Assembly (NCBI GenBank): GCA_020850775.1 | Contig: JADZEA010000181.1 | Location: forward strand, 1 to 43,040 | Direction of reading: 5' to 3' | Length of the DNA: 43,040 nucleotides | Source of the DNA: a bacterium | GTDB taxonomy: Bacteria; CLD3 | In this document: in pieces, positions 1,571 to 15,717 of the stretch | Position numbering within the stretch: position 1 is the first letter of the stretch | Layout: every line of letters starts with the position of its first letter | Notes under the pieces: model-generated | The model's input: the letters and a program-made list of their open reading frames with translations, nothing else | The model's database searches: none | Told to the model about the DNA's origin: nothing | Program-made: the position numbers and the translations under genes

Positions 1571-2272
1571 TTAAACCTTCATTGAGTAAACGCTGACGAT
1601 TCCAAAAGTAAGTGGTAAAACTTTAATTTCCGTGAAACCAACTTTCCCAAGTATTTTCAGAAAGTCTTCTTTTTCGGGAAATTTCATTACAGAAGCAGGG
1701 AGGTAAGAGTAAGCATTGTTGTGTTTTGAGAAAATTTTTCCAACCAAAGGTAAAATTGATTTGAAGTAAAAAAGGTAAAATTGCTTGAAAACTGCTTTTT
1801 CAGGTTTAGAAAACTCCAAAATTAGAACTTGAAATTTTGTAACTCTGTGCATTTCTGAGAGTGCTTTTTCAATGTTTTCGCAGTTACGAATTCCGAAAGC
1901 AATTGTTGAAGCGTCAAAAGTTTTGTTTTTGTAAGGCAAGTTTTCAGCGTCTCCACAAGCAAAAGCAATTTTTTTGCCTTGAATTTTTGCAAGCCCTGTT
2001 TTGAGCATTCCTGAAGCGATGTCAGTTCCAAAAACGTTTGCGTCAAATTGTTTGTTGATTTCAATTGCAAGGTCGCCGGTTCCCGTCGCAAGGTCAAGAA
2101 CTTTAGAGTTTAAATTTAAGTTTTTTAGTTGTTTAACAGCAATTTTTCGCCAATAAAAATCAATTCCAACACTCAAAAAATGATTTAAAAAATCGTAAGA
2201 GTGAGCAATTGAATTAAACATTCCTTTGACGTAGATTTTTTTGCCTTTTTCGGCGCCTAATTCGTAATCCAA
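1571..2272 (-). CDS. menG: Demethylmenaquinone methyltransferase (UbiE/MenG)
   Basis: Class I SAM-dependent C-methyltransferase catalysing the last step of menaquinone synthesis. With the proposed start it is 233 residues, the family's usual length. The family N-terminal signature is present as 'MFNSIAHSYDFLNHFLSVGI' (18-37), the SAM loop as 'VLDLATGTGDLA' (58-69), then 'GTDIASGML' (82-90) and the C-terminal 'PEKEDFLKILGKVGF' segment. The frame is open to an ATG at 2338, but the extra 22 residues are hydrophobic, unlike UbiE, and lie in a repeated segment. TTG at 2272, preceded by AAAGGAAAC, gives a product starting MDYELGAEKG that matches the family. The leader immediately upstream is the segment duplicated on the far side of the RM unit. 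No other quinone gene is nearby. Confidence 0.9.
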   Translation of the reverse strand: MDYELGAEKGKKIYVKGMFNSIAHSYDFLNHFLSVGIDFYWRKIAVKQLKNLNLNSKVLDLATGTGDLAIEINKQFDANVFGTDIASGMLKTGLAKIQGKKIAFACGDAENLPYKNKTFDASTIAFGIRNCENIEKALSEMHRVTKFQVLILEFSKPEKAVFKQFYLFYFKSILPLVGKIFSKHNNAYSYLPASVMKFPEKEDFLKILGKVGFTEIKVLPLTFGIVSVYSMKV

Positions 2273-2274
2273 AA

Positions 2275-2332
2275 TTTTAAAGTTTCCTTTTTTAGTTTCC
2301 CAAAAATAATCCAAAAAAACAAACAAACAAAC
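2275..2332. repeat. Direct repeat copy A (menG leader), flanks RM unit
   Basis: 58 bases in the same orientation as copy B at 4574-4629. Positions 2275-2290 match 4574-4589 exactly (16 bases), and 2297-2332 match 4594-4629 exactly (36 bases). Between them are 6 bases here and 4 in copy B. The repeat ends 2 bases from the proposed menG TTG start and carries its ribosome binding site, so copy A is the native menG leader or its restored copy. Confidence 0.93.
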
Positions 2333-2355
2333 GGGCAAAATTTGGAAAATTTTTC

Positions 2356-3900
2356 TTAAAAAAGTGATAAGGTTTCATTTTCAAAAGCTAAAAATTTTTT
2401 AATTTTTCCTGGTTGAGCCCAATTCATAGTTCCTTCCATTTTTAAGGAAAGCAAGTAGTTTTCAATTCTTTTATCTAAGAGTAATTCAAGGATTTTTTCA
2501 GCTTCGTTTAGGGATTTAAGTGGGATAAATGCTTGTAAAGATTGGTTAGCCTGCCAATCTTTTTGAAAAATTTGTGGACAAAATTTTGTTTTTCCGTATG
2601 CTTCCCAAATTATTTTGTAAGGATAAAAGTTGTAAGCACCTACACCGAGCAGAGACCACCAATTTCCTCTGCTAATCAAAGCATTTAACATCAATCCTTT
2701 TCTGTTTTGAAGAATAATTTTATGGTTAAATAAAAATTCAGCTAATTTTTGTTCTTTTAGAATTTGTGTAAGTTCAAGAACTTTACCGTTTGAATTGTAA
2801 GGGAGAAGTGCCCATTTTAGGGGATTTTTTTTTTCTTCCCTGAAATTTATGCTCGTTGCTAAAGGAAAAAGGTATTTTTTAGGCAAAGGTGTTTTTTTTA
2901 TTGTTTTGTTTGCAACTAAACAAGTTAGCTCGTCGATTTCTTCGTAAGTATCAAAAAAGAAAATATCGTTTGCACCACAAGTGTTTATTCCTTGTCTTGG
3001 AACAGAATCTTTTTTTAGAGTAATCGGTTCAAAACTTTCTAATGGATTAATTTCTAAATCTGAAAAAATACTCAATGGATCAGTAAAATGAAACATTGGT
3101 TTTGCAAAATAATTTATCCATTTTTTATTTTCACATCTTGAGTATGGAATTGGAAATGTTTGCTTTTTATCTCTTAAAAAATGAACTAATCCGTAACGGG
3201 TAGCAACACCGTCAAAAGCATTTGTATCATTAAAATCAAAAATTTTACTTATAAGATAAGGTGTAGAATTTACCTTGTAGGTTCTAAAATATTTGTTCGC
3301 TCCATCATTAAGCAGAAGGGAAAGTGGCATAAAAAAAATTGCTTCGCCATTTTTTTTGAGATTTTGTTCAATAGTTTTCTGAATTACTAAAGCAGCTAAA
3401 TCAATTCTTGAACCACCTAACAATAAATCTTGTGAATTACCAATTAAATCATACTTAAAAAATTGAGATTTAATTTTTTGTTTATATAAATCTGGCAGGT
3501 CAACAAAATTTTGCCAAGGCGGATTTCCAAAAATTATGTCAAAAGAGAACTCTTTGTGTAAGAAAAAAATATCTTTGTTAATAAAATTGTTTTGGGGCAA
3601 GATTAAATTATATTGTTTTTGTATTTTATTTAAAAAATTATTGTAATATTTTGAATTTAATTCAACGCCGTAGAGGTTTTGAATTGGAAGCTCTTTAGGA
3701 TTAATTCCTTTTCTAAATCCCAAATTAATAAAAGCTTCCAATAAATTTCCTTCGCCCATTGTTGGGTCAAAAATTGTTGCTCCATTAATCCATTTATCAA
3801 ACAAATTAAATTCTTTAATGGCAAAATTAGCTAAATTTTGTGGTGTAAAAATCGCACCTATTGAAAGTTCATTTGTTTTATTTAAATCTAAAGTGTTCAT
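2356..3900 (-). CDS. Type II N6-adenine DNA methyltransferase (TaqI/gamma class)
   Basis: 514 residues from the preferred ATG. The SAM motif I 'IFDPTMGEGNLLEAF' lies at residues 43-57, ahead of the catalytic motif IV 'DIIFGNPPW' (121-129). This order (motif I before NPPW, then a long C-terminal target-recognition region) is that of gamma-class N6-adenine methylases such as M.TaqI. It protects host DNA by methylating adenine in the site cut by the neighbouring nuclease. The frame is open to 3951, but that start would overlap the nuclease gene by 74 bases. The ATG at 3900 overlaps by 23 and gives a normal N-terminus with 'SIGAIFTPQNLANF', typical of these enzymes just before motif I. The site recognised cannot be read. 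Confidence 0.88.
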   Translation of the reverse strand: MNTLDLNKTNELSIGAIFTPQNLANFAIKEFNLFDKWINGATIFDPTMGEGNLLEAFINLGFRKGINPKELPIQNLYGVELNSKYYNNFLNKIQKQYNLILPQNNFINKDIFFLHKEFSFDIIFGNPPWQNFVDLPDLYKQKIKSQFFKYDLIGNSQDLLLGGSRIDLAALVIQKTIEQNLKKNGEAIFFMPLSLLLNDGANKYFRTYKVNSTPYLISKIFDFNDTNAFDGVATRYGLVHFLRDKKQTFPIPYSRCENKKWINYFAKPMFHFTDPLSIFSDLEINPLESFEPITLKKDSVPRQGINTCGANDIFFFDTYEEIDELTCLVANKTIKKTPLPKKYLFPLATSINFREEKKNPLKWALLPYNSNGKVLELTQILKEQKLAEFLFNHKIILQNRKGLMLNALISRGNWWSLLGVGAYNFYPYKIIWEAYGKTKFCPQIFQKDWQANQSLQAFIPLKSLNEAEKILELLLDKRIENYLLSLKMEGTMNWAQPGKIKKFLAFENETLSLF

Positions 3901-4543
3901 AATTATTTTTCTTAAATTCAATAATTGATTGGATTCTTTGGTCAGCGTCAACTTTTACTCTTTTGTAGTGTGTTAATGCTAAATCGCAAAAAATTTCAAA
4001 AAAATCTCTATAAGTTCGTTCCCATTTAATCTCATTCCAAACCTGGTTGATGGTGTAATTTAACCTCACTTGCCCTGTTCCCAAGTTTTCAATTCTGTAA
4101 GTATCATTTGGTAAGGTATGAAATGGTGCGATACGAATGTACTCAATGTCTCTGCTTTCATTTTTTACACCTGATTTGTTGTGCCCAAATTCGGCAATGA
4201 TGAAAATTCCTTTATCGTTTGCGAGGTACTTTAAAAAATTACCAACCGCACAAACTCCTCCGTCAGAATATTTTGTTGTGTCTAAATCTTTTGTTTTTAT
4301 ATCAAATCCAAAAAATTGATTATTAATTTTACACGCAAAATCAAAAATTGTTCGTTTACCAGGAATTTTTAATGGCTCGTAACCCAATTCATTACAAATT
4401 TTTTCCCAATTTTGGGTTATCCGCTTTTCAATCATCGCACCGAAAGCTCTTGAATCTTCACGTTCTGCAATACCTGAATGAATTTCCGCAAAAAGTTCTT
4501 TTATTTTATCTTCAATAGAAATTGAAATTTGCTTAAAATTCAT
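3878..4543 (-). CDS. Type II restriction endonuclease, PD-(D/E)XK fold, HincII-like
   Basis: 221 residues, upstream of and overlapping the methylase gene. A catalytic core is visible: D68 ('IFDF'), then D81 and K83 in 'GFDIKTKD', with a helix glutamate at E39 ('AMIEK'). The D-x12-D-x-K spacing equals that of HincII (D114, D127, K129 from memory), and the N-terminal 'SGIAERED..AFGAMIEK' and C-terminal 'QRIQSIIEFKK' segments also recall HincII. This supports a Mg2+-dependent nuclease in an R-M pair, but the family link is my reading, not a search result. ATG at 4543 has a good ribosome binding site (AAGGTGA, minus strand, 4550-4556). Another orphan PD-DxK subfamily remains possible. Confidence 0.75.
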   Translation of the reverse strand: MNFKQISISIEDKIKELFAEIHSGIAEREDSRAFGAMIEKRITQNWEKICNELGYEPLKIPGKRTIFDFACKINNQFFGFDIKTKDLDTTKYSDGGVCAVGNFLKYLANDKGIFIIAEFGHNKSGVKNESRDIEYIRIAPFHTLPNDTYRIENLGTGQVRLNYTINQVWNEIKWERTYRDFFEIFCDLALTHYKRVKVDADQRIQSIIEFKKNNYEHFRFK

Positions 4544-4554
4544 ATTTTTTCACC

Positions 4555-4572
4555 TTACAATATTTTATTCAT
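4555..4572 (-). other. Possible five-codon leader ORF before the nuclease gene
   Basis: Directly after the ribosome binding site carried by repeat copy B, the sequence reads ATG and four more codons (MNKIL) and then TAA. The stop overlaps the ribosome binding site of the nuclease gene (4550-4556). The arrangement would allow ribosomes loaded at the duplicated menG leader to terminate on the nuclease's binding site. It may be chance; no conservation data are available. Confidence 0.3.
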
Positions 4573-4573
4573 T

Positions 4574-4629
4574 TTTTAAAGTTTCCTTTCTTCTTCCCAA
4601 AAATAATCCAAAAAAACAAACAAACAAAC
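4574..4629. repeat. Direct repeat copy B (menG leader remnant)
   Basis: 56 bases matching copy A at 2275-2332, with identical blocks at 4574-4589 and 4594-4629. It lies between the HEAT carrier stop codon (gene ends at 4640) and the nuclease gene. A 2-base length difference and the loss of menG downstream show that it no longer leads menG; it probably serves as leader for the nuclease mRNA. Confidence 0.93.
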
Positions 4630-4639
4630 CCTAAAATCC

Positions 4640-7378
4640 TTACGCACTTTCTAATTTTCGCACCACAATTTCCGCTGTTTCTCTTACTTTTGGCGATTGG
4701 CTTTGAGCCGCAAAGTTCACTTCTTCAATTAATTCTCTAAATTTTAGCTCACCAACTACATCAAGTGCTAAAACTTTTAGCCAGTTGTCGTTGCCTTTCA
4801 GCAGCTTTGCAACAGCACTTTTTGGTGTTGAGTAATCATTCCCAAGTTTAAAATAGTTTGCTCCAATTCTCAACTTTGCCTGAACTGAAATTTCATCTCC
4901 ATTCACAATTGGCAAAATTATTTGCTTGATGTTTTCACCAGCCAAAAATGAATCAAGAAATTCCAAAGCATTTGCTCTGATAAGTTTGTTTGCACTTTTT
5001 AAACCGTTAAAAGTCAAAAACATGTCTCGTAAATTGTAACGCAAACCCAAAAGCCTGAAAATTTTTTCGTAAGTTAGTTCAAGTTTTTCACGAACTGCTT
5101 CACCAAAAAGTTTTTTTGCTCTGTAATTTTCTGAAAGTTTACCAACAGCTTTTTCCACCAAAAGCAATTTGTAGTAGTACTCTGCCTTGTCAACAATCTG
5201 TTTTTCAATGAGTTGTGAATTAAAAACCAAATTAGGATTTTTTTGCTTGATTGAGTTCAGTGCCTTGATAATTCTGTAATCAACCAAACTGTCGTCTTGC
5301 CAAACAACTTTTAGAAGTTCGTCAACAACTTTTTGGCTGCTGATTCTTCGCAAAACAAAAGGAATGTTCCTGCGCAAGTAAAGATTTTCAGATTGATTGG
5401 TAAGTGTTTTCAGCAAAGGCTCAACTACAAAATCTTCGTAATTTACAAGCGAATTTGCCGCAAAAATTCTTAGCTTGCTGTTCGTTAGCTTGCTGACAAG
5501 AATTGGGATAAAATCCTTGTTTTTCAGTTTTCCAGCACTCAAAATTGCTTCTTTGGAAACCGTAAAATTACTGCTTTCAATTAGTTTCACGAGGAATTTC
5601 GTTGAAGGCGAATTTTGTGGTAAATTGCCAAGTGCTTTTGCAATTTCAACTCTAACCCTTTCTTCCGTTTGGCTTTCAATGATTTTTTCAAAAGCTAAAT
5701 TCTGCAAATTTTCGTCGTCAAAATGTTTCAGACAATAAATTACAGAAGCAATTTTTAACGTTTCGTCGTTTTGTTCAAGTAAATTTTTCCAAAGATTTTT
5801 ATCCTTTTCAGAATTTTTAGACAAAAAACAAATCGCTTCTGCAACAATTCTTGGGTCTTTTTCCGTCAGCAAAGGTCGCACAAGTTCAACAATTTGTTCG
5901 TTTGTTTCTTCTGCTAACAAAGAAATTGCTGCAAAACGGATTTCAGGGTTTTCGCTTCTGAAAAGTTTTGCAATTGGCTCAACAAGGTTTGTTTTTTTGG
6001 CAGAACGAACTAAACCCAAAACAAAAATTATCTGTTTTTCAGTCCCGTTTTCAAGTGTTTCAGTAACAAGTTTCAGGCTCGCAGAATCGTCAAAATCAAG
6101 CTCAACAGAAGAATCAATTTCAGGTTTGTAAAAAGTTTTTCGTAAAGCCTTCAAATATTCAGTTTGAGTTAAAGCAAGTAAAAACAGCCAAATTCCTATA
6201 AAAAAAATAATTAAAAAAGCAATTTGTGAAAGTGAAAAACTTAGGTAAGTAACAAAAAATAAAAGTAAAAAACCTGCGATTCCCGTTGCAAATCTATCCA
6301 CAAACATTTCAATAAAAGTCTTGACTTTTTTCTTAATTCCTGTTGAAAGTGGCATAAAAAACAGTTCCATAACTGATTTATTTATTGAAGTTGTAAAAAC
6401 TCCTTCGCTTCCTTTTAAAAAAATTCCAATCCAAATTCCTGTTGAAAAAAGTATGAAAACTGAACTGACAAGCATCGTAAAAGGCAAAATTAACCCTGAA
6501 AATCCAACTCCAAAACGTTTCAAAACAGGGCTTGTGAAAAATAATTGAAAAACAAAAGCAACAATTCCAATTGCTGTGTAAAATTCACCAAAAAAATCCG
6601 TTAAAGTGTCTTGATTTTGGTAAGTTTCTTTTGCAATCACTTTGAACTGAAAATCAACAATTGTTGAAACAACAACCGAAACAAAAACAATCCCTGCAAT
6701 AAAAAACAAGTACCTTGATTTAAAAATCAGTTGAACTGGTAAGTCTTTGTTAGATTTTTCCTTTTGAGTTTTTGGCTGCAAAATAATTTTTTTGCTCGTA
6801 AAAAAAGTCAGGAAAGTTGAAACCAAAAGCAAAAAAGCACAAACTAACAAAAGGTTCTCAGTTCCAAAAAAATCTGCTCCCTGGTCAGCAATTTGTCCAC
6901 CAAAAATTCCACCTGTAATTGCTCCGGTTCCGATAAAACTAAACAACCGTTTTGCTTCACGGGGATTGTAGATTGAGTTTGCAAAAAGCCAAAACTGGGA
7001 AGTTGTAAGAATGCCTAAAACTCCTGAAAAAATGTAAAGAACAAAAGGTAAAGAAGGATTTTGAGTTAGCTTAAACAAGCCAAAAAGCAAAATCAAAATT
7101 GCACTCAAAATCAGGTTTGTAGCAAAAATCATCTTAAAAAGGTTGAATTTTTCGCTAATCTTTCCGTAAAAAGTTGAGACAAAACCGACCACAACGGCAA
7201 GCAAAATGTAAAGGTAAGGAATTTCACCAACACTAAAATTTGTGAGAAAAACTGCGTCTCTAACGGCTTTCAGGATTGTAAAAGCTGCAATCACTAAAAA
7301 AATTTGGAAAAACATCAAAAGTGCGACTTTGTGTTCGCCTTCTTTTAAGCCGAAAAATTTTTGTAAAAATAGTTTCAC
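4640..7378 (-). CDS. NTT (ATP/ADP translocase)-like carrier fused to C-terminal HEAT repeats
   Basis: 912 residues. Residues 1-410 form a 12-helix major-facilitator-type carrier of the NTT superfamily: 'KKFFGL'-type cytosolic start, 'TILKAVRDAVFLTNF' at the end of helix 1 (compare K-x-x-K/R-D in nucleotide transporters), 'FWLFANSIYNPREAKRLFSF' after helix 4 and 'GTGAITGGIFGG' in helix 5. From about residue 430 to the end are repeated paired helices such as 'NPEIRFAAISLLAEE' and 'DPRIVAEAICFLSK', typical of HEAT repeats. Free-living bacteria are known to carry NTT-HEAT fusions, but their substrate is not established; nucleotide exchange is family-based inference only. The gene starts 9 bases after the Omp85 gene, in one operon with the second NTT-like carrier. 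Confidence 0.82.
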   Translation of the reverse strand: MKLFLQKFFGLKEGEHKVALLMFFQIFLVIAAFTILKAVRDAVFLTNFSVGEIPYLYILLAVVVGFVSTFYGKISEKFNLFKMIFATNLILSAILILLFGLFKLTQNPSLPFVLYIFSGVLGILTTSQFWLFANSIYNPREAKRLFSFIGTGAITGGIFGGQIADQGADFFGTENLLLVCAFLLLVSTFLTFFTSKKIILQPKTQKEKSNKDLPVQLIFKSRYLFFIAGIVFVSVVVSTIVDFQFKVIAKETYQNQDTLTDFFGEFYTAIGIVAFVFQLFFTSPVLKRFGVGFSGLILPFTMLVSSVFILFSTGIWIGIFLKGSEGVFTTSINKSVMELFFMPLSTGIKKKVKTFIEMFVDRFATGIAGFLLLFFVTYLSFSLSQIAFLIIFFIGIWLFLLALTQTEYLKALRKTFYKPEIDSSVELDFDDSASLKLVTETLENGTEKQIIFVLGLVRSAKKTNLVEPIAKLFRSENPEIRFAAISLLAEETNEQIVELVRPLLTEKDPRIVAEAICFLSKNSEKDKNLWKNLLEQNDETLKIASVIYCLKHFDDENLQNLAFEKIIESQTEERVRVEIAKALGNLPQNSPSTKFLVKLIESSNFTVSKEAILSAGKLKNKDFIPILVSKLTNSKLRIFAANSLVNYEDFVVEPLLKTLTNQSENLYLRRNIPFVLRRISSQKVVDELLKVVWQDDSLVDYRIIKALNSIKQKNPNLVFNSQLIEKQIVDKAEYYYKLLLVEKAVGKLSENYRAKKLFGEAVREKLELTYEKIFRLLGLRYNLRDMFLTFNGLKSANKLIRANALEFLDSFLAGENIKQIILPIVNGDEISVQAKLRIGANYFKLGNDYSTPKSAVAKLLKGNDNWLKVLALDVVGELKFRELIEEVNFAAQSQSPKVRETAEIVVRKLESA

Positions 7379-13086: not shown

Positions 13087-15573
13087 TTAACAGCAAGCTC
13101 CGTCAACACAACAACCACTCACAAATTCATCCGGCATTTTATTGCCTTCAACAATCAAAAATGCTCCTTTGTAAGGTTCATTTTGCAGTTTTTGTGCTGT
13201 GTCTGTGCAGATTTCAATTGCTTCACCTCTTGGGAAAAAATGTCCTTCTTCGTCCATAATTGATTTAAAAGGTCCTTGATAAATTGCTTTTTGTCCAATA
13301 AAAACACAACCTTCCTTTTTCTCAAACTTGAAGCCTGAAACCGTTACAGAGAAAAATTTGTAGCCTTCCACACTTTTCCAGTAAGTTTTTTTTAGAGTTG
13401 CGAGTCCGTAAAAACCTGCTTCTTCAAGCATCGAAACAAAATCCCTTTCAGTCAAAGCTCCTGACAAACATTCTCCCCAAAGGACAGGATTTACTTGTAA
13501 GTAAGCTGGAACTTCAACTTCCGAAACAATGTCAGAAATTACAATTCTTCCGTGGTCCTTAAGAATTCGCCACATTTCAGCAAAAACTGTTTTTTTATCC
13601 GGTGAAAGATTAATTACACAGTTTGAAGTAATTAAATCCACACTTTTTGTTTCAACAGGGACTTTTTCCATAAATCCTTCACGAAATTCACAAACATCAA
13701 AACCAAGATTTTTAGCTACAAGTTTATTGTGTTTTTGTGCTTGCTCCAAAGATTGAAAAGTCATGTCAACACCAATCACTTTTCCGTTTTTACCTACTTT
13801 TTTAGCAGCAATAAAACAATCAATTCCTGCTCCCGAACCAAGGTCAACAACTGTTTCGTTTTCTTTCACTTTTGCAATGCTCATCGGAGAACCACAACCG
13901 TAAAACCTTTCCAAAACCTCACCCGGAATGTGGTCAGTATCGGATTTGTCGTAACTTGCCGGACAGCAAAGCTCCGCTTGCGGAGTTTCCATTGCTTCGC
14001 CGTAAAATTCCTGCATTTTTTGGTGAGACTTTTCATAACTAAGGTCAAGCACACAATTTGAATGCAAAGTATTCACTCCAAACTCTCCCAAAAGATGAAC
14101 ATTTTCTTCCTCGTCGCCACAAGTTACACCAAGTTCTCCCATTGAGTAAAAAATTGTTGGAGCGTCAAAACCTGCTTTTGTGTTTAGTTTTCGCCTGTTT
14201 TCAACGTAAAATTTATTAATTGCTTCATCCATCAAAAAATCATAAACTTCATTGTAAGGGTCTGCCCCAAGAATGTTTCCTTTTCCCGTAATTGCTTTTG
14301 AGTAGTAAAAACTGTGTTCAACATCTCCACCACCACAAAGGAATTTCCGCGAATCCGAGTGTGAAACAGCTTTTTTTTGGACAGTTGCGTTCAAAAACTC
14401 CTGAACAACTTTTGAGTTTGCTAAAATTTCTTTGAGCGAATTTTCGTTCACGTTTCCACATTCAAGTTCTTCAACCTGAACAAAAGCTGCGGAAGGATAA
14501 ACTTTTCCGTCAGAATAAACACAAAGCGAAGAAACTCCGGCAACACTAAGGTCATTTTTCACATTTTTTTGCCCGTTAATTCTTAGCTCAAATTCTTCAA
14601 AATTATCAATTACCACTCCAAGTGAATTTGCAAGTGTTTTGATTTCTTTAAGTTTACCGATAATTTCATAATTTTCAACTTCGTAACCTGAACCAATTGC
14701 CCGACCTTTCCTGTGAAGCCAAAGCAAGTGAAACCTGTTCACTTTCAGTTCTGAAAGAAGCCGGACAACGTCGTCAAGATTTTCAATGTTTTGCTTTGTA
14801 ACCGTTGTTGTGATTGTTGGCTGGTAACCAATTTCAATTAAATTTTTTATCCCGTTAACAATGTTTTCAAAACTTCCCTTGCCACGAATTGCGTCGTTAA
14901 TTTTAGCGTTTGAGCCATCAAGCGAGATTTGTAACGTGAGTTTTGTTTTGTCGTAAGTTGCTAATTTTGAAAGAGTTTCTCCTTTAAAAAGTATTCCGTT
15001 TGAAAGGATTGTCAGCTCTGCTTTTGTTAGTGCGGTGTCAATTAGTTCAAAAATATCTTTGCGGAAAAAAGGTTCTCCACCCGTGAAGTACATTTTTTTT
15101 ACGCCAAGCGCTAAACCTTCACGAATGACACTCAAAACTTTTTCAGTTGGAAGCCCTTTGTGTTCTTGCGAAGAAGAATTTACAAGGCAATGTTCACAGG
15201 CAAGGTTACAGGAATTGTTCGTGTGAACCCACATTTCTTTGAGAATTGCGGTTTGTAAAAAATCTTTTCTGCCAAAGTAAGGAGCGTAATTTTTAGGTTT
15301 TTCAAAAATAAATTTGTGGTAAATCCCTCTTTTAATGAAGTGGTTCACGTGAAGCCAGGATTTTTGCAAGTCTAAACCAAAAGTTTTGCTGTACTCCCGT
15401 ACAATTTCTTCAGTTGTATTTTTACCGCTTAGAAGGTTTACAATTTTTGCTCCTTTTTCATCCGTCAAAATCCAGTTTGGAGCCTCGTAATCAAGGAAAA
15501 AATAGCCTGAGTCATATTTTTTTTGTTCGTAGTCTGGTGTGTAAAATATTGTTTTTGGTTCAAAAGAAATCAT
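13087..15573 (-). CDS. PqqD-like / radical SAM-SPASM / ArsM-like methyltransferase fusion
   Basis: 828 residues from ATG 15573, which has AGAAGGG seven bases upstream; the ATG at 15600 has none. Three domains are visible. Residues 20-88 resemble a PqqD-type peptide-binding winged helix ('APNWILTDEKGAKIVNLLSG'). Residues 112-420 are a radical SAM domain with C122/C126/C129 in 'CNLACEHC', 'TGGEP' (164-168), and later cysteines C351, C372 and C413 that could hold an auxiliary cluster. Residues 535-740 are an arsenite-methyltransferase-like domain: 'VVDLGSGAGID' (575-585) and cysteines at the three As(III)-binding positions of ArsM, C560 ('YGCGSP'), C652 ('SNCVINLSPDK') and C702 ('CLSGAL'). The protein ends in 'GCCVDGACC'. 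The reaction is unknown: arsenic or thiol-metal chemistry, or peptide modification, are both possible. Confidence 0.85.
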   Translation of the reverse strand: MISFEPKTIFYTPDYEQKKYDSGYFFLDYEAPNWILTDEKGAKIVNLLSGKNTTEEIVREYSKTFGLDLQKSWLHVNHFIKRGIYHKFIFEKPKNYAPYFGRKDFLQTAILKEMWVHTNNSCNLACEHCLVNSSSQEHKGLPTEKVLSVIREGLALGVKKMYFTGGEPFFRKDIFELIDTALTKAELTILSNGILFKGETLSKLATYDKTKLTLQISLDGSNAKINDAIRGKGSFENIVNGIKNLIEIGYQPTITTTVTKQNIENLDDVVRLLSELKVNRFHLLWLHRKGRAIGSGYEVENYEIIGKLKEIKTLANSLGVVIDNFEEFELRINGQKNVKNDLSVAGVSSLCVYSDGKVYPSAAFVQVEELECGNVNENSLKEILANSKVVQEFLNATVQKKAVSHSDSRKFLCGGGDVEHSFYYSKAITGKGNILGADPYNEVYDFLMDEAINKFYVENRRKLNTKAGFDAPTIFYSMGELGVTCGDEEENVHLLGEFGVNTLHSNCVLDLSYEKSHQKMQEFYGEAMETPQAELCCPASYDKSDTDHIPGEVLERFYGCGSPMSIAKVKENETVVDLGSGAGIDCFIAAKKVGKNGKVIGVDMTFQSLEQAQKHNKLVAKNLGFDVCEFREGFMEKVPVETKSVDLITSNCVINLSPDKKTVFAEMWRILKDHGRIVISDIVSEVEVPAYLQVNPVLWGECLSGALTERDFVSMLEEAGFYGLATLKKTYWKSVEGYKFFSVTVSGFKFEKKEGCVFIGQKAIYQGPFKSIMDEEGHFFPRGEAIEICTDTAQKLQNEPYKGAFLIVEGNKMPDEFVSGCCVDGACC

Positions 15574-15717
15574 TGTTACCCTTCTAAAATTAGTTTGCAT
15601 TTTGGAACGGAACTTAAAAACAGTTTTGGCTAAAAACTATTCCAAAAAATTAGCTTTTTCTTTTTAGCCTTTTCTAACTTAACTTTTCACGTCCAAAATT
15701 AACTTTAAAATTATCCG

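Follow-up and report, generated by a model that had tools for sequence, protein, structure and literature searches.

How did a pair of restriction-modification (RM) genes come to stand between two copies of the leader of menG? The window, that is, the whole stretch of DNA analyzed, is an entire contig (C181; 43,040 nt) of a genome of 3.09 Mb in 265 contigs. We favor, at a probability of roughly 0.78, the reading that the RM pair was inserted in the menG start region and that 56 to 72 bp of target were duplicated, the direction of this change being one that we infer. RM and toxin-antitoxin (TA) genes are mobile anyway, and the status of the pair as an insert is thus unsurprising by itself.

The repeat pair and the start of menG

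The features of the locus are as follows.

1571..2272, minus strand: menG/ubiE menaquinone methyltransferase gene (TIGR01934, PF01209), whose leader is duplicated; probable start TTG 2272, frame open to 2338
2275..2332, minus strand: copy A of the duplicated target, 58 nt, in front of menG; promoter-like TTTG-N19-TATTTTTG, then ribosome binding site AAAGGA
2356..3900, minus strand: DNA adenine methylase gene (Eco57I-like), 514 aa from ATG 3900, frame opening at TTG 3951; motifs DPTMGEG and GNPPW
3878..4543, minus strand: putative restriction endonuclease gene, 221 aa; PD-(D/E)xK-type motif (E52, D68-x12-D81-x-K83); own ribosome binding site AAGGTG at 4551-4556
4555..4572, minus strand: mini-ORF MNKIL-stop (ATG-AAT-AAA-ATA-TTG-TAA), 3' of copy B; probable remnant of the original menG start
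4574..4629, minus strand: copy B of the duplicated target, 56 nt, between the carrier and nuclease genes
4640..7378, minus strand: carrier gene (TLC ATP/ADP transporter with HEAT repeats), on the opposite side of the insertion from menG and not part of the duplicated target

Copies A and B share an exact block of 36 nt (2297-2332 and 4594-4629, 36/36 identical) and a second one of 16 nt (16/16), and the joint between these blocks comprises 6 bases in copy A and 4 in copy B. Exactly two genes, the nuclease and the methylase, both on the minus strand, lie between the copies. An initial annotation of this DNA had described just such a pair of direct copies, of 56 to 58 bases, with the same blocks and unequal joint and with the menG ribosome binding site in both; comparison within the window upheld this description, the candidate site AAAGGA being present in A and in B. 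The annotation's statement that there is no transposase is also correct for the unit, which has no terminal inverted repeats either. Chance is excluded as the origin of the repeat, because the 36-mer had no match in 100 dinucleotide shuffles of the window and occupies only two sites in the whole 3.09-Mb genome (up to 3 mismatches allowed), and because the A/B pair is the sole exact direct repeat of at least 20 nt in the window.

The original start of menG probably lies at copy B. In the only same-family genome, G001, the menG product begins M-S-Q-N-L-N-Y-E-L-G, and window menG after copy A reads ...I-L-D-Y-E-L-G. Judging from this one comparison, the ATG and first five codons with which menG originally began (MNKIL) probably survive at copy B, and copy A has probably lost about 11 nt. 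The same comparison indicates that TTG 2272 may be the present start of menG and that the duplication may extend to about 4558. The insertion had been called recent, which the identical leader blocks favor and the apparently diverged menG start region speaks against.

On the minus strand, the 36-nt block consists of the TTTG-N19-TATTTTTG arrangement followed by AAAGGA. Such an arrangement is the pattern of Bacteroidota promoters, and the closest named matches of menG are from Bacteroidota. Upstream of this genome's genes, TTG-N18-22-TAnnTTTG occurred 24 times in sense and 11 times in antisense orientation versus 7.9 times in shuffles (about 3-fold enriched), which makes it plausible that the copied block contains a promoter; a TTGAC-type pattern is enriched there too. 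The idea that the RM genes received a ready-made leader from menG is limited to transcription, since the nuclease gene has its own ribosome binding site, AAGGTG, 7 nt before ATG 4543.

The further proposal that excision of the insert plus one copy rebuilds a carrier-menG operon found no support. In G001, which is the nearest genome compared (same family, other genus; menG 65% identical), menG and the carrier gene lie in separate neighborhoods, gene order differs on both sides, and an unrelated gene follows the carrier orthologue; carrier-menG adjacency is therefore not conserved, and the leader is itself promoter-like. Neither the nuclease nor the methylase was found in G001, and a scan of the genome-contig collection gave no relative closer than this genome; no relative showed an empty site.

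A nuclease and methylase of possibly different histories

The methylase matches the Pfam profiles Eco57I (PF07669) and N6_Mtase (PF02384) and the PADLOC type II/IIG MTase. Its full-length homologues, at 40 to 56% identity, keep DPT-x-G-x-G and GNPPW, the latter being conserved in four proteins, and the locus thus has the DNA methylase gene with catalytic motifs that is expected of a type II RM system. The nuclease had no match in Pfam, NCBIfam, or PADLOC. Across five aligned nuclease proteins, however, E52, D68, D81, and K83 are invariant and have PD-(D/E)xK spacing, and four distant homologues (19 to 21% identity, from four other genomes) each directly adjoin a DNA methylase gene of another type. 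Because these residues are shared and the homologues adjoin methylase genes, the 221-aa protein is a probable restriction enzyme. The locus resembles type II RM systems with an Eco57I/N6-type methylase in that a DPTMGEG/GNPPW methylase gene adjoins a gene for a PD-(D/E)xK-motif nuclease, but differs from them in that the nuclease lacks a profile match and has homologues paired with a different methylase type. The latter difference suggests exchange of RM parts in the past.

The homologues (L082, L083, L084, and L086) represent an unnamed nuclease family found in four unrelated genomes, in each case paired with a DNA methylase of the HPTQKP type. The closest relative of the methylase (about 56% identity) is encoded at L048 4992-7718, on an IMG/VR contig classed as viral, and is followed there by a Dam-like methylase gene; no relative of the nuclease was found in the IMG/VR collection. 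A plasmid or phage source of the RM region was rejected, as the region had no match at the DNA level in plasmid and phage records and the nuclease was not found in them. The same records bear on a Campbell-type integration, in which a circle that bore the RM genes together with a menG leader copy integrated here and homologous recombination spread the unit from strain to strain. Such an event gives exactly direct repeats of host sequence, and recombination between the repeats would release such circles. However, it accounts for spread and not for the first arrival of the RM genes beside this leader, and it finds no DNA-level relative among the plasmid and phage records; we consider it very improbable.

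The same scar at six further loci

We searched 1.32 Mb (43%) of the genome for direct repeats of 30 to 260 bp lying 300 bp to 15 kb apart, and excluded from the count those confined to a single ORF, those formed by conserved C-terminal tails, and those belonging to dispersed or tandem families. Seven two-copy direct repeats (39 to 129 bp) flank complete genes in this sample, the window unit included, and the cargo at all seven is an RM system, a TA system, an NYN RNase, or an ABC-3C defence system. Inverted pairs were absent from the sample at the same thresholds. The six loci outside the window are the following.

C187, L158 3207-3288/4009-4090: 82 bp, 81/82 identical; MntA-like antitoxin and HepT toxin; between the gamma-glutamyltranspeptidase and PNP genes, which diverge
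C53, L150 2112-2168/2896-2954: 57/59 bp; PIN toxin and partner; after the formate-THF ligase gene, whose last codon and stop are inside the repeat
C66, L227 6852-6905/7879-7932: 54/54 bp identical; ParE-like toxin and 208-aa partner; between convergent glycosyltransferase and methylase genes
C34, L128 5284-5331/6159-6206: 48 bp; NYN RNase gene (PADLOC HEC-09); after an M1 peptidase gene that contributes its 3' end to the repeat
C170, L214 3941-3979/4649-4687: at least 39 bp, cut by the contig end; VapB15-like antitoxin and PIN_3 toxin; after the adenosine deaminase gene
C4, L096 4820-4948/12758-12884: 129 bp, 88%; ABC-3C system (SMEK-CTD10, MC6, DUF2326) plus two further genes; ahead of an aminotransferase gene that contributes its leader and start to the repeat

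The initial annotation had read the window locus as an RM insertion with a long target duplication, and these six loci of the same anatomy, with RM-, TA-, or defence-type cargo, support that reading well. The repeats of the seven loci are mutually unrelated; each is local host sequence (a gene end, a leader, or intergenic DNA) and is present in just two significant full-length copies within the 1.32 Mb searched. At six of the seven loci, namely those with compact inserts, the G+C content of the insert is 27 to 30% versus 34 to 39% in the flanks. When the insert and one repeat copy were removed in silico, the neighboring ORFs remained open. At C66, the two flanking genes converge and their stop codons overlap within the repeat, so that each gene now uses its own copy. 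The cargo is co-directional with the gene that supplied the copied end or leader at all loci except C4 (6/7), and the identity of the copies ranges from 88 to 100%, in keeping with graded age.

The anatomy of these loci weighs against other accounts of the window. An old local tandem duplication of the menG leader, between whose copies ordinary recombination later placed the RM genes, would also yield two leader copies, but it would call for seven independent events, each around RM, TA, or defence cargo at a gene boundary, and the 1.32-Mb sample holds no two-copy direct pair around other complete cargo genes; we regard this order of events as unlikely. Integrated islands have flanking direct repeats of 15 to 100 bp that are often made from gene ends, and the repeats described here could on this ground be the att sites of a site-specific integration whose integrase was lost or acted in trans. 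Such an origin is very improbable given that no relationship links the repeats of one locus to those of another, that the inserts carry no integrase genes and in six cases are only one or two genes long, and that the targets are a variety of protein genes, with no single tRNA or core site in common. A classical DNA transposon was rejected, since the longest inverted matches at the insert ends are only 6 to 9 bp, with none above 9 bp, and the duplications are 39 to 129 bp and variable.

Individual loci differ in appearance. The unit at C66 (L227 6852-7932) is the youngest-looking case. At C170, the second repeat copy ends at the contig end, which may result from a branch in the assembly or from a mixed population in which only some cells carry the unit. 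C4 is an older, larger case that includes two non-defence genes; patchy similarity there reaches about 500 bp upstream of the 129-bp repeat (L096 4298-4948 and 12552-12884), which suggests a larger, older, and partly decayed duplication. The flanking genes of the six loci are scattered in G001, as judged with a chimeric multi-gene query, and no empty sites were found there.

Repeats of this kind were present at three of the six clear PIN/HepT loci in the genome, and among 20 random genes of the same sample at most one was RM/TA-like (a YhcG-type nuclease). A 350-kb sample of E. coli K-12, selected so as to contain the EcoKI/Mcr region as well as several TA pairs, yielded no unit of this kind but is too small for a rate difference; the repeats in it were limited to a pair of tRNAs, pieces of IS30, and multi-copy sequences. 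A further 517 kb of loci from other genomes gave three direct pairs, namely an AT-rich match, a pair within one ORF, and a pair at a type IIG RM gene end. In this last pair (L053 2892-2959/4173-4240; genome G355, of another phylum), a second copy of the 3' end of the RM gene (87%) follows one unidentified gene, and the pair may represent a similar event.

Several repeats in the source genome were discarded: those of L094 and C34 50821 because they lie inside one ORF, those of L117 and L132 as conserved C-terminal sorting tails, those of L093, L102, L115, L156, and L176 as dispersed repeat families, and those of L105, L136, L141, L159, L164, L188, and L216 as paralogous or tandem coding repeats, some of them by copy number alone. 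The dispersed repeats include AAGCGTGGATTCCGCAACTTTT- and AACACGGATTTTGGGG-like pieces and occur in several contigs.

Entry, retention, and relation to known insertions

A model of the insertion can be proposed from these features. The type II-like RM pair (about 2.24 kb, including short flanks) would have entered the menG start, after which menG kept one copy of the target and the RM pair followed the other. Entry may have occurred by capture of DNA at a long-stagger break, with two nicks 40 to 130 bp apart, or by an equivalent template switch; fill-in of the single strands would then copy the target onto both sides. Copying of the target would allow insertion at or over gene boundaries while leaving both neighbors intact. 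Classical Ku-dependent end joining was rejected as the route, because no Ku was found in the source genome (G000); none was found in G001.

Direct repeats would also make each unit easy to lose by recombination, as a precise deletion. Post-segregational killing by RM and TA units, on the other hand, would remove cells that lose the unit, and the dominance of RM and TA cargo may have arisen because of this removal. That addiction also applies to the NYN and ABC-3C cargos is a guess. A chromosomal RM system has been found to resist replacement by an empty site (PMC10273834). Whether these elements add up to a general route is an evenly balanced matter in our estimation: a transposase-free route, still active in this lineage, would insert small addiction or defence units at gene boundaries with target duplications of 40 to 130 bp, the duplication keeping the neighbors working and giving the cargo a transcription context, and addiction preventing deletion. 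The units of this proposed route are RM, MntA-HepT, VapBC-type, ParE-type, NYN RNase, and ABC-3C.

The means by which RM and TA genes become mobile in the absence of transposases have long been debated. For RM insertion with long target duplication in Helicobacter pylori, Nobusato et al. (2000) and Furuta et al. (2010) are cited in PMC3874152, PMC1643837, and PMC3031569. Insertion of RM genes with long and variable target duplications (about 100 bp) is described first for Helicobacter (PMC3874152, PMC1643837, PMC3031569, PMC4978471, PMC2749054). As presented there, the H. pylori insertions resemble the window in having no linked transposase and in having host-derived direct repeats of variable length, of the order of 100 bp; they differ in that the empty site was seen there by strain comparison, whereas we infer the window insertion from one genome. 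The window locus fits this described type of insertion in its anatomy, and what differs is the wider cargo across the genome: relative to the H. pylori cases as presented in those sources, the same scar is found here also around TA pairs, an NYN RNase gene, and an ABC-3C system, and in a non-Helicobacter genome. No report of long target duplications around TA or ABC-3C units was found in the open literature searched, a scope that excluded subscription papers. RM units that carry inverted repeats and duplicate only a short target are also on record (Furuta et al. 2010, as described in PMC3874152). These are, like the window unit, compact and behave as if mobile, but the window unit differs from that description in having no terminal inverted repeats and a duplication of 56 to 72 bp rather than of a few bases. 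With at least seven scars of graded age in one genome, cargo retention, the rate of repeat-mediated deletion, and harmless insertion at gene ends become testable questions.

Elsewhere in the window, an 837-aa ORF (13087-15600) looks by eye like a fusion of a radical SAM protein with an arsenite-methyltransferase-like domain, and it adjoins genes for a Fur-like regulator and a peroxiredoxin.
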